From positions 2,614,501 to 2,678,500 of the forward strand of contig NZ_AP025516.1 in assembly GCF_023169885.1 (NCBI RefSeq): a stretch of 64,000 nucleotides of DNA, read 5' to 3'. Each line of letters begins with the position of its first letter. Position 1 is the stretch's first letter. Both the position numbers and the translations under genes were made by a program. The stretch is from Desulfofustis limnaeus (GTDB taxonomy: Bacteria; Desulfobacterota; Desulfobulbia; Desulfobulbales; Desulfocapsaceae). Shown here one piece after another: positions 35,627-39,160 of the stretch. Under the pieces are notes generated by a model. It saw only the letters and a list, made by a program, of their open reading frames with translations, did not search any database and was not told the DNA's origin.

Positions 35627-36142
35627 TCAGTGGTTTCTTCCCGGTTGGTGACCGGCTAGCTGCGGTCCGCCCGAGCGAACGTCGACAATCCGACAGATGG
35701 TTGACGATGCGTCGATCAAATGGGAGAGGTAGCGCTTTTCCTGCAGTTTGTAGCGTTCCTCATGCAACGGATCGATCGTGTCGTAGACGACCCAGCGGCC
35801 ACCGCCACGCTTTTCCCCGGTCCGATCATAGAAATCGCAGAAGATAGTTACGTCGCGAACCGGTCGGGAACCGTTATTGACCAAGGCAAACTCGGCCTGG
35901 GTCATCGACCCGGGCTGGTGCAGGTCGAAACGGTAATCACTGAGCACCAGATGCCTGCCCTCGGCTTCTACCCGAGCAGTCGGTTCGACCCCGGGATTGA
36001 GCAAGCCGATAATATCGGGCGCTTCGGCAACCCGTTTGATCCCGTAACCACAAGCCAGGAGGATACACACACAGAGGGCAACTCGGGCGAATTGCTCGAG
36101 TCGACCGGGCCGTCGTCCCTGTTGATGGTTCCGCATTTCCAT
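35627..36142 (-). CDS. membrane-anchored hypothetical protein with FxLYD-like domain
   Basis: A 171-residue protein with a single N-terminal hydrophobic helix (about 19-36) and a periplasmic beta-rich part. The block AEFALVNNGSRPVRDVTIFCDFYDRTGE (longer than quoted families' core) resembles FxLYD/DUF-type extracellular domains, where a polar-backbone correction motif precedes a Cys and Asp. It is otherwise unrecognised. The same strand as the carrier/birA pair, 62 bp upstream, so perhaps co-transcribed. Confidence 0.6.
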   Translation of the reverse strand: MEMRNHQQGRRPGRLEQFARVALCVCILLACGYGIKRVAEAPDIIGLLNPGVEPTARVEAEGRHLVLSDYRFDLHQPGSMTQAEFALVNNGSRPVRDVTIFCDFYDRTGEKRGGGRWVVYDTIDPLHEERYKLQEKRYLSHLIDASSTICRIVDVRSGGPQLAGHQPGRNH

Positions 36143-36389
36143 GGCACACTCCGCAGGAAGGTTTGCTATATACTTTCATATCTACCCGATGGCAAGGTAA
36201 TTTTCCAGTCCTTCCGAACGACACCGGCAGTCGGTGGCCCCCACTTTTCTCTGGGCTTTTGTCCTTCAGTCATTTACCTTCACAGAGGAGCTGTTGGCTT
36301 GGTTGTCCGACGCCACGCACGCCAGAGCCATTGCTTAGGTTCAGCCGGATGATATCGTACTCGTGAGAGCTACGAGCAAAAACCGGGCT
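36143..36389. other. non-coding stretch upstream of the structured element
   Basis: No gene seen. It carries a hairpin GGAAGG/CCTTCC (about 36159-36208), a hairpin CTCGT/ACGAG (36360-36376), and a weak plus-strand promoter candidate TTGCTT...TATCGT (16-bp spacer, about 36332-36359) just ahead of the self-complementary element. The frame from GTG 36363 to 36590 is basic and lacks any recognisable family. Confidence 0.35.
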
Positions 36390-36550
36390 AAGGGTAGCGC
36401 TGGAAAACGCCTCGCGAAGGCCCGCCGGGGCGCCACAACAGGGTTGCGGGCAGGACGTCCGCAACTGACAGCCTGCCGTGGATGGCCTGTCTGTCAGCCG
36501 TGGCGTGACGGCGATGGGGACGAAGAGCAGCGTTTGGAAGCGCTACCCTT
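36390..36550 (+). ncRNA. candidate structured RNA with three-way junction
   Basis: Nested complementarity suggests a folded RNA. P1 is a 12-bp perfect helix (36390-36401 with 36539-36550). A symmetric GGA/GGA internal loop (36402-36404, 36536-36538) follows, then P2 AAACGC/GCGTTT (36405-36410, 36530-36535). P3 CGCCAC/GTGGCG (36431-36436, 36500-36505) closes a three-way junction holding two hairpins: GTTGCGG/CCGCAAC (36443-36449, 36459-36465) and CTGACAG/CTGTCAG (36465-36471, 36491-36497, sharing one base). It matches none of tmRNA, RNase P, SRP, 6S or the common riboswitches that I can recall. Strand is uncertain. A folded DNA element is the alternative. Confidence 0.4.
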
Positions 36551-36586
36551 CGCCTTCCCGGTTACAGACACACAGGCGCGAGTCGG

Positions 36587-39160
36587 ATGAGCCATTTTTT
36601 CTATCCCATGCGCATGCGAGTTATCCTTCATTATTCGATACGCGCCCTTTCCCTGGTGGTAATCGGTGGATTGCTGGTTGTCCTGTTGATTCCGCTGCTG
36701 ACCAACACCGTGCTACTGCCGCACCTGTTGAGCAGACTGCCGGTCGATCGGGCGGCGGCTAACCTGTGCAGCTTTAGGCTGTTCTCCGTCAGCGGTTCGC
36801 TGGCACTGCAAAACGAGCAACAGACGATTATCAGTCTTCCCCGCATCACCCTTACCCATACGCCGCTCGACCTGCTCGGCAAAAAAGGCGGGACCCTGCA
36901 GATCGAGCAGGCCGTCGTTCATCTTCAGCAGCACAACGGCCGTTACCGGCTACGCGGCTGGCCCAACCAAGGCGACCAGGCCAATCCATCCATGCTGTCA
37001 GCGGCGCTGATGCCCTTCGCCATCGACCGGCTGCACCTGAGCGACTGTACCCTGATTCTCCATGACGAGACCGGGCAGGCCCGCCGCTTGTCCGTTTCCA
37101 CCGATCTGCATCTTTCTTTCCAGCGGCAGGAGGGGGACGGCTTTCGGCTGCAAAACGCAGTCGGCACCGTGGAGTTATCCGATCTTTTTTCCACCAGCGG
37201 CACCATCAGTCTGGCGACTGGCCCCGATTCCGTCGACATCTCCCTGCTCCTGGAAGAGCTGGATGCCAGGCCACTCCGGGATCTGCTGCCGGCGCCGCTG
37301 CGTGACTCACCCCTCGGTCGGGCAACCCTCTCGGCCCAGGTGGTCACCTCGTCTGACTACCGAGACATTCGGCAGATCGAAGTACAGACAACCCTGCACC
37401 AACCTGACCTTGCCGCGGCTCCCTTGTCCTTGCAAGGAACCGATGCGACCGGGGAGATTCGCTGGCGTGTCGTCGGCCCGCCGCACGACCTGCAGGTCAC
37501 GGTGGATCCGGTTGCGTTGGTTGCCCCGTCATGGCGTATCGAGGCAGCTGTCCGCGGCCGTCTGTCATGGCAGCGGGATGTTCTGAGCGGTACCGGGGCC
37601 GTCGACCTGACGGTCTCTTCCTCAGATCTGGAGGTTCCGCTGGCTTTCACGTATCAGGCCCTGGTTGACGGCGATGGCAGGTGGCGCCTTGAAATCGACG
37701 GGCAAACGAGTGGTCCGCTGCTCCTGCCGGAGTATCGAGGGATACCCCGGATTACGGCAGGGCCGGTTGTAACGCTCGGGGCGCGGCTGAACGGACAAAG
37801 CAACCACGTCGACGCCGCCCTCTCCCTCACCGTACCGAAATTGGAACTCACCCTGCCCGCCACCGCCGTTGCCGCCAGCCAGCTGCAGGCCGCTGTGACT
37901 TTTGCCTCCGACCCGACCGGAACAAACGCACGGCTCTCCGGCACCGTCAAGCAGGTACGGTTGGCTGATGGGCAGGCGGGCGTGGATGACTTGACCGTCG
38001 TTTTGCCGCTCACCTGGAACGATGAATCGCAAGCGGACGCGGCCGGGTCGATCGCAGCCGCGTCACTGTTCTTCCGCGGCGCCTCCTGGGCCGCTCTGTC
38101 CGGTGAAATAAGCCGCAGCGAAGGGGCGATCGGCTGTACCGGCAGGGTGCGCGCCCAGTTTTTTCCGCATCCGGAGCTGAGCTTTTCCACCCACTACCGA
38201 TTGAAAGAGCACCATTTACAGCTCGACTGGCGACTCCCCGTCACCCTGATCGATAGCGCGAACCTCCCCGCGCGCGACTGGCTCCCTGGCGATTTCTCCT
38301 TTCAGGGCCGCCTAGCCAGTCAGGGACAGCTGCAATTTACCGGCAGTCGATTCACCGGAGCGGCTGAGCTCGAACTTTTGGACGGCACCGCACTCGTCCA
38401 CGAGCGAGGGCTCGCCGTCAGCGGCATGGCCTGCTCCCTGCATCTGCCGCGCCTGCCCCTCCTGATATCGGCACCGAGCCAAATCTGCCGCGCCGCTTCG
38501 GTCGATATCGGCACCCTCCACTTCAGTGATGCCACTATCGCTTTCCGGGTGGAGGATCCAACCACGATCTTTATCGAAAAAAGCCGTGCCGGCTGGTGCC
38601 AGGGAACGGTGGAATCGGGGAGCGTGCGCCTCTCCTCACGAAAACCGGAAGTGGAGACTGTCCTTTACGCCAGCCGGCTCAATTTCGCCGAAGTGCTCAA
38701 CCAGTTTGGGTTTGACCAGACCGAAGGGGAGGGGACCCTCAACGGTAAGCTGCCGGTACGCTGGGCCGATCGGCGACTCTTTTTTGACGATGGTTTTCTG
38801 TTTTCCACCCCCGGAACAGGTGGTATAGTGCGCTTCACCAGCACCGAGCTGCTCCGCCAGGGAATCGGCGCCGCGTCACAGAACGGCTCGCTGAATTATT
38901 CCGTGCGGGCCCTGGAAGACTTCGCCTACAATTGGACAAAGGTGACCCTCAACAGCTCGGCCGACGAATTGCTCATGGCCTTGGAACTCGACGGCCAGCC
39001 GCGAACGCCGCTGCCTTTCTCGTTCAAGGACGGGGCCCTTGTCGAGTCGCAGCAGGGCAGCCTGCAGTATCCGGTCCGCCTCGACATCAATGTGCGTCTG
39101 CCCCTCAACGAGCTGTTGCAGGTCGGGCACAACGTCAAAACAATCATGGGAAACCGCTAG
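36587..39160 (+). CDS. YdbH-like AsmA-superfamily envelope protein
   Basis: An 857-residue protein with one N-terminal helix (about 13-35) and a very long periplasmic beta-rich body of repeating short strands, typical of AsmA/TAM/YdbH bridge-like lipid transporters. The following two small genes are a YnbE-like lipoprotein and a YdbL-like protein, reproducing the E. coli ydbH-ynbE-ydbL order. E. coli YdbH is one of three partly redundant proteins moving phospholipid to the outer membrane with YnbE as its outer-membrane partner. The conserved C-terminal region (QGSLQYPVRLDINVRLPL near 840) fits the family. Start ATG 36587 (or 36608) is uncertain. Confidence 0.8.
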   Translation: MSHFFYPMRMRVILHYSIRALSLVVIGGLLVVLLIPLLTNTVLLPHLLSRLPVDRAAANLCSFRLFSVSGSLALQNEQQTIISLPRITLTHTPLDLLGKKGGTLQIEQAVVHLQQHNGRYRLRGWPNQGDQANPSMLSAALMPFAIDRLHLSDCTLILHDETGQARRLSVSTDLHLSFQRQEGDGFRLQNAVGTVELSDLFSTSGTISLATGPDSVDISLLLEELDARPLRDLLPAPLRDSPLGRATLSAQVVTSSDYRDIRQIEVQTTLHQPDLAAAPLSLQGTDATGEIRWRVVGPPHDLQVTVDPVALVAPSWRIEAAVRGRLSWQRDVLSGTGAVDLTVSSSDLEVPLAFTYQALVDGDGRWRLEIDGQTSGPLLLPEYRGIPRITAGPVVTLGARLNGQSNHVDAALSLTVPKLELTLPATAVAASQLQAAVTFASDPTGTNARLSGTVKQVRLADGQAGVDDLTVVLPLTWNDESQADAAGSIAAASLFFRGASWAALSGEISRSEGAIGCTGRVRAQFFPHPELSFSTHYRLKEHHLQLDWRLPVTLIDSANLPARDWLPGDFSFQGRLASQGQLQFTGSRFTGAAELELLDGTALVHERGLAVSGMACSLHLPRLPLLISAPSQICRAASVDIGTLHFSDATIAFRVEDPTTIFIEKSRAGWCQGTVESGSVRLSSRKPEVETVLYASRLNFAEVLNQFGFDQTEGEGTLNGKLPVRWADRRLFFDDGFLFSTPGTGGIVRFTSTELLRQGIGAASQNGSLNYSVRALEDFAYNWTKVTLNSSADELLMALELDGQPRTPLPFSFKDGALVESQQGSLQYPVRLDINVRLPLNELLQVGHNVKTIMGNR

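Follow-up and report, generated by a model that had tools for sequence, protein, structure and literature searches.

A worn ISL3-type MITE copy in Desulfofustis limnaeus that probably carries a captured TwoAYGGAY-related RNA module

Introduction

A stretch of 64,000 nucleotides from the sulfate-reducing bacterium Desulfofustis limnaeus (contig NZ_AP025516.1, positions 2,614,501 to 2,678,500; hereafter the window) contains, between two divergent ORFs, a segment of elaborate self-complementarity, which raises the question of whether it is a new structured RNA or a part of some other kind of element. A preliminary description, made from the letters of the window, had delimited this segment as 36390-36550, drawn it as a closed helix with a three-way junction, and put it forward as a possible new RNA.

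Small RNAs such as CsrB and RsmZ act by sequestering CsrA. TwoAYGGAY (Rfam RF01731), according to a 2014 article, was proposed from motif matches to bind CsrA, has tandem-GA pairs noted in one stem, and was named as one of two candidate CsrA-sequestering RNAs outside Gammaproteobacteria (PMC4333381); an entry in a 2010 listing places it in the human gut, gamma-Proteobacteria and Clostridiales (PMC2864571).

Results

Fold of the window copy

Every pairing of the preliminary description, namely the 12-bp closing helix, the GGA/GGA internal loop, the 6-bp helices and the two hairpins, was recovered when the sequence of the window copy was read (Table 1). Its expectation that so intricate a fold is unlikely to arise by chance is likewise borne out: the fold energy of the window core is -88.6 kcal/mol for the + strand and -81.7 kcal/mol for the - strand (z -5.50 and -5.41, respectively), and none of 200 dinucleotide shuffles matched it on either strand. 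The three-way junction survives in part: as originally drawn it is the minimum-energy fold of the - strand, whereas that of the + strand has a rearranged interior and differs from both the three-way junction and the family fold. Alignments further reveal that the inner stem of hairpin 2 is worn in this copy, with CCTGCC replacing CAGGCC opposite GGCCTG, and that it carries a deletion (alignment of 40 copies). The covariance model of the family (R1) scores the window core at 138.6 bits, the core itself being among the 17 rows used for building the model.

Table 1. Coordinates of the features in the window
Feature	Position	Strand	Basis or remark
Whole element, probable non-autonomous ISL3-type MITE, 256 bp, RNA-like core	36338..36593	.	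alignment of 40 copies
Left terminal inverted repeat, end type B (GGTTCAGCCGGATGATATCGTA)	36338..36359	+	type B 45 vs type A 20
Right terminal inverted repeat, end type A (reverse complement GGCTCATCCGACTCGCGCCTGT)	36572..36593	-	type A 50 vs type B 22
Left 8-bp flank ATTGCTTA, possible worn target duplication	36330..36337	.	5/8 vs right flank
Right 8-bp flank ATTTTTTC, possible worn target duplication	36594..36601	.	5/8 vs left flank
Core, putative TwoAYGGAY-related structured element	36390..36550	+ (strand with GGA loops)	blastn repeats, model R1
12-bp perfect closing helix, 5' arm	36390..36401	+	pairs with 36539-36550
12-bp perfect closing helix, 3' arm	36539..36550	+	pairs with 36390-36401
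Symmetric GGA/GGA internal loop, 5' GGA	36402..36404	+	GGA/GGA kept across family
Symmetric GGA/GGA internal loop, 3' GGA	36536..36538	+	GGA/GGA kept across family
Second helix AAACGC/GCGTTT	36405-36410 with 36530-36535		pairing read in sequence
Junction-closing helix CGCCAC/GTGGCG	36431-36436 with 36500-36505		pairing read in sequence
Hairpin 1, loop AGGAC at 36452-36456	36443..36465	+	loop GGA kept across family
Hairpin 2, loop with GTGGAT	36465..36497	+	loop GGA kept across family
Downstream gene, 857-aa ORF	36587..39160	+	ORF list; no Pfam match
Upstream divergent ORF, 171 aa	35627..36142	-	ORF list; no Pfam match; rejected by codon-score caller

A repeat family with inverted ends and target duplications

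Using a 181-base query, blastn returned at least 41 matches to the window core, corresponding to at least 40 places in the 4.23-Mb genome (40 of 83 candidates scored), one copy being split into two pieces. When the remaining 39 places, each with some 2 kb of flanking sequence at either end, were aligned with the window copy, the family similarity was seen to extend beyond 36390-36550 in both directions, up to inverted ends (GGTTCATCCG..T...GCGTAC) that begin GGTTCATCC. The extent originally proposed was thus too short: the segment occupies the central part of a 256-bp repeat.

With up to 3 mismatches, the end pattern has 98 matches genome-wide, as against 3 for a reversed control, and 46 elements with both ends (some weak) were recovered in 72 stretches; 26 of these elements contain one of the 40 cores. 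The window copy is absent from these 46 two-ended elements, as its ends are worn and fall below the two-ended pattern cut-off; its limits in Table 1 rest on the alignment and on end-type scores. Identity between the 8-bp flanks of the 46 elements is 0.658 versus a shuffled mean of 0.352 and a shuffled maximum of 0.424 (500 shuffles), with values of 0.469 and 0.406 in the 7-bp and 9-bp registers respectively; the duplication is exact in 8 of the 46. The target is 76% A+T versus about 46% immediately outside, and the agreement between the two flanks of the window copy is compatible with a worn target duplication. Seven elements elsewhere in the genome, each of about 80 bp, no longer contain the core. 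No transposase-sized ORF is present in the 256 bp of the window copy. By its shared inverted ends, target duplications, short length and lack of a transposase the family is a MITE.

Relationship to ISL3 elements

Allowing up to 1 mismatch, the same end pattern is present in 17 of 58 genomes, D. limnaeus being one of the 58. Paired ends enclose longer stretches in two of them: 1328 bp in G003 (C337 292-1619), where an ISL3 transposase (PF01610, E 6e-68) lies between nearly identical ends, and 1253 bp in G028 (C56 7068-8320), where the ORFs, which are partly masked, look similar by eye and the copy is flanked by an exact 8-bp duplication, ATAAATAG. A PF01610 search of D. limnaeus found eight ISL3 transposases and, among them, no autonomous partner with the ends of the MITE. 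They belong to eight copies (L122-L129) of another ISL3 element with different ends (GGCTCCTCG...), which rules it out as the direct partner; hence, the MITE appears to be without a partner in this genome. Three inspected flanks of the resident element also show 8-bp AT-rich duplications. Seven of its copies are 100% identical over about 1334 bp and one is 97% identical, and two lie about 30 bp apart.

Orientation of the core within the MITE

Relative to the two end types, the core lies one way in 29 of the 40 copies and the other way in 9, with 2 unclear and some scores close. On a tree of 33 cores (five truncated copies and two with unclear ends being set aside), 6 changes are required to explain the orientations, and well supported branches force at least 2 of them, the support values being rough. 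This suggests that the core was inverted repeatedly relative to the MITE ends. The edges of the core carry 25-bp inverted arms, which are likely to have been the site of exchange.

Free-standing relatives

Hits at E <= 0.001 were counted with the covariance model, whose 17 source cores come from three genomes. The model matched at least 56 places in D. limnaeus and at least 61 in D. glycolicus (150 candidates scored), at least 8 of the 58 genomes (52 candidates scored per genome) and at least 6 of 395 Desulfobacterota genomes (7 candidates scored per genome), D. limnaeus being included in both counts; the homologues in Desulfobulbales that the preliminary description had advised looking for thus exist. 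In a set of named genomes, from which that of D. limnaeus was possibly left out, an exact basal-domain pattern was found in 20 stretches, each belonging either to Desulfofustis glycolicus DSM 9705 or to a single Desulfobulbaceae MAG.

Cores also occur free-standing, outside the MITE: six in D. limnaeus (L191-L195 and the truncated L201), dozens in D. glycolicus and fewer in other Desulfobacterota. Paired MITE ends are absent from the free copies of both Desulfofustis species; L201, classed as free, has MITE-end-like sequence on its left. Five model hits without a blastn match (L196-L200), some with MITE-end-like sequence, were kept out of the free class. Inspection of the flanks of the D. glycolicus free copies revealed no clear target duplication, and a comparison of the six D. 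limnaeus loci with 28 of D. glycolicus found no common flanking genes, bar one weak 43-aa match. Many of the D. glycolicus free copies (L202-L222) lie within a longer repeat consensus, which continues several dozen bases past the helix.

The outer helix of the free copies varies in sequence between copies, with the two arms matching within a copy. Over its first 16 positions, 94% are paired within a copy versus 53% with mixed arms in D. limnaeus (n=6), and the corresponding values are 92 versus 82% in D. glycolicus (n=21), 78 versus 67% in G003, 77 versus 66% in G011 and 60 versus 47% in G055; in 13 distant copies they are 44 versus 37%, an outer helix not being evident in most of these.

Relationship to TwoAYGGAY

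An Rfam search gave no match above cut-off for the window copy: TwoAYGGAY, one of two weak hits (E up to 5), scores 20 bits against a gathering cut-off of 43. A free-standing relative from the same genome (L193) reaches 44.5 bits, above the cut-off, over model positions 1-168, and another locus (L017) reaches 42.0 bits. Of the first six loci tried, four scored 30 to 42 bits and two had no match. Across the 58 genomes, RF01731 had 23 matches (E <= 0.001) in two genomes only, three places being above cut-off (one in D. limnaeus and two in D. glycolicus), and none in 14 control genomes. Six of the eight loci taken from other families of the phylum reached 31 to 36 bits; the loci tried from G055, G011, G025 and G036, along with one from G003, had no match at E <= 2. 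The earlier statement that no known RNA class fits therefore falls for the family, which fits TwoAYGGAY, the window copy itself remaining at its low score. Judged from sequence comparisons, the family is a multicopy, TwoAYGGAY-related element of Desulfobacterota that is partly borne by an ISL3-type MITE.

In the family alignments the hairpin 2 loop is mostly AUGGAU or ACGGAU, and that of hairpin 1 is CAGGAC/U, one base short of AYGGAY. With the five truncated MITE copies of the 40 and L201 dropped, and with 35 free copies from D. limnaeus, D. glycolicus and G003, the GGA/GGA internal loop is present in 32/35 MITE and 27/35 free copies, the GGA of the hairpin 1 loop in 34/35 and 31/35, and that of the hairpin 2 loop in 34/35 and 32/35. 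The stems differ in G055, yet most of its loops are still CAGGAA or CAGGAU, the exceptions being found in L225 and L227. The G011 copies keep the basal domain but have other apical hairpins and show no evident GGA loops, which argues against such loops being essential for every member. Two of these copies (L229, L230) have the basal domain GCTGCATCGCGGAGGCC...AGGCCGGAGAGCCGCAGC in common and very different apical hairpins, and two different forms are close neighbors on opposite strands in G011.

Genomic contexts

Gene contexts were derived from a simple codon-score gene caller, with no annotation behind them. The 40 MITE copies comprise 10 sense and 10 antisense tandem placements, 6 convergent, 10 divergent and 4 that are unclassed or in a gene. 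The 70 free copies, from eight genome groups and including 28 of the 61 D. glycolicus matches (with the coordinates of one locus, L020, 31 bases off), comprise 24 convergent, 13 sense, 11 antisense and 10 divergent placements, with 12 in genes or at contig edges. A sense-oriented 3' UTR element was considered as an explanation of the free copies and rejected: D. glycolicus and D. limnaeus together are 8:2 in favor of sense, but G055 is antisense in 5 of 5 and the total is 13:11.

RNA-level constraint or DNA palindrome

In the 17-row alignment 96.3% of the cells pair. Change on both sides is seen in 18 of 43 pairs versus a shuffled mean of 11.1, and the covariation score is 0.345 versus 0.159, with 0 of 500 shuffles as high in either case and slid structures at or below 0.073; one of the five measures, further pair types, is not unusual (37 versus 35.1; 100 of 500 shuffles). 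Covariation, a check the preliminary description had called for, is thus above shuffled controls in the family, with the caveats that related rows can inflate such controls and that a process correcting palindromes gives the same signal; copying could mimic it because the free copies are dispersed repeats.

A G-U pair on the RNA strand corresponds to A-C on the other, and the two kinds of change therefore discriminate between strands. Among distinct single changes, 26 free copies of D. glycolicus have 22 G-U versus 6 A-C (p 0.004) and 35 MITE copies have 26 versus 20 (p 0.46); with inherited changes included, the ratios are 48:6 and 52:26 (p 0.004 for the latter). The contrast between free and MITE copies has a Fisher p of 0.079 on distinct changes, on which it is only suggestive, and of 0.004 on all changes. 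Free copies of D. limnaeus (4:1) and G003 (6:4) provide small numbers. Paired double versus broken single changes, again counted as distinct, are 30:28 in the D. glycolicus free copies and 11:54 in the MITE copies (Fisher p 5e-5). Thus, the free copies look constrained at the RNA level and the MITE copies mostly do not, with gene conversion or subfamily structure as further possible sources of the difference.

These data bear on the possibility that the core is a dispersed DNA palindrome, of the kind of the intergenic palindromes REP, BIME and ERIC, that never had an RNA function, its symmetry being kept by template switching between its arms during replication. In favor of such an origin, the window copy folds as well on one strand as on the other, and the free copies lack an overall sense orientation and favor convergent intergenic positions (24 of 58 classed versus 6 of 36 MITE copies, p 0.013). 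Two of the three copies in G121 (L236, L241) have perfect 20-bp outer arms of unrelated sequence, which also fits. Template switching should however erase the GGA/GGA mismatch and the hairpin GGA loops, and both are kept; G-U exceeds A-C on one strand in the D. glycolicus free copies; and three free copies score above the cut-off of an Rfam RNA family. On balance we regard a purely palindromic origin as possible but somewhat unlikely.

The window locus

Whether the window copy serves the 857-aa gene at its right end as a cis-regulatory leader can be considered from its local setting. GGA loops placed upstream of a start codon are the layout of CsrA repression; the window copy has such loops, lies on the strand of the gene, and its MITE end includes the first ATG of the ORF (36587). 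A later in-frame ATG, at 36608, may be the true start. Tandem MITE copies show no preference for the sense orientation (10 versus 10 of 40), in the window copy hairpin 2 is worn and a deletion is present, and no sigma-70-type promoter-like site was found in 36100-36700. We accordingly hold a leader function to be very unlikely. The two flanking genes had previously been likened to FxLYD and ydbH; neither protein has a Pfam match at E <= 0.001.

Discussion

In our view the element in the window is quite probably a non-autonomous ISL3-type MITE, present as a worn copy, with a captured, TwoAYGGAY-related structured RNA module as its core. Since the core occurs at 40 or more places within a transposable MITE, the window copy is most likely a decayed passenger rather than a new RNA gene. 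Several observations sit less comfortably with a MITE carrying such a module. The window copy has a low TwoAYGGAY score, a + strand fold other than that of the family, flanks agreeing at only 5 of 8 positions and ends below the two-ended cut-off. Several loci (in G055, G011, G025 and G036, and one in G003) lack a TwoAYGGAY match. The strand contrast on distinct changes does not go below p 0.079, the MITE copies are themselves G-U-rich at 52:26 once inherited changes are included, and the D. limnaeus and G003 numbers are small. One of five covariation measures falls within the shuffles, the free copies have no overall orientation (13 sense and 11 antisense in tandem), and D. limnaeus has no ISL3 partner with the ends of the MITE.

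Of the proposal of a new structured RNA, the structured and RNA-like character stands, and the novelty gives way to a MITE-borne, multicopy core. The preliminary description had itself said that an Rfam or insertion sequence match would identify the element as something else, and this is largely the outcome; the folding advantage and the homologues, whose lack it had also named as telling against it, are both present. An entirely new class of RNA that has a function of its own at the window locus could appeal to the absence of an above-cut-off Rfam match for the window copy; it is extremely unlikely given a core repeated across a transposed family and homologous to TwoAYGGAY-matching relatives. 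A single-copy RNA gene is ruled out by the whole-genome search.

The history of the MITE with its TwoAYGGAY-related core may be envisaged as follows. An RNA module related to TwoAYGGAY would have been captured and then multiplied by the ISL3-type MITE, which an ISL3 transposase recognizing the common ends would have moved in trans. The free-standing form is probably transcribed, or once was, from the GGA strand; its transcript would fold into the three-way junction, offering the GGA loops to CsrA, which might thereby be titrated, or neighboring transcripts might be tagged. The MITE-borne copies, that of the window included, would mostly decay as passengers.

CsrA binding is a proposal of others, which the conservation of the loops might extend to this family. 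The D. limnaeus genome encodes csrA (L160 1501-1737), between what we take to be a flgL-like gene on one side and a fliW-like gene on the other; on account of this fliW-like neighbor, a protein antagonist may sequester CsrA as well. It is conceivable, if rather unlikely, that the ISL3 MITE made a CsrA-binding module mobile, with its roughly 40 sites forming a distributed CsrA sponge and placing CsrA sites in new transcripts. Were this so, a transposon would be rewiring or titrating a global post-transcriptional regulator. Searches of the literature on TwoAYGGAY, CsrA, Desulfofustis and ISL3 MITEs found, at the level of titles and abstracts, no MITE carrying TwoAYGGAY, and none of the reports found joins CsrA, small RNAs and Deltaproteobacteria or Desulfo- genera. 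A TwoAYGGAY-related core in a MITE would be a case of a transposon-borne regulatory RNA module. The function of TwoAYGGAY is poorly understood. D. glycolicus, a sulfate reducer available in culture, has dozens of free copies bearing strand-specific signs of constraint at the RNA level and offers a natural system for testing the proposed link to CsrA.

Comparison with known systems

The element resembles CsrB and RsmZ in having GGA in its hairpin loops and in co-occurring with csrA in the genome. It differs in being a dispersed repeat rather than a single small RNA gene and in that the csrA of D. limnaeus adjoins a fliW-like ORF. With REP, BIME and ERIC it shares a dispersed, palindromic and mostly intergenic character; it departs from them in keeping its GGA loops and mismatch loop, in its Rfam match and in the wobble-biased changes of its D. 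glycolicus free copies. Like ISL3 insertion sequences and their MITEs, it has 8-bp AT-rich duplications and inverted repeats starting with GG, and in a relative nearly the same ends bracket an ISL3 transposase; unlike the insertion sequences it is without a transposase, and its interior is RNA-like and lies in either orientation relative to the ends. Finally, differences from TwoAYGGAY are seen in its multicopy and partly transposon-borne nature, in a hairpin 1 loop one base shorter and in the below-cut-off score of the window copy (20 versus 43 bits), whereas the two adjacent hairpins set in a junction, with GGA in their loops, are common to both.
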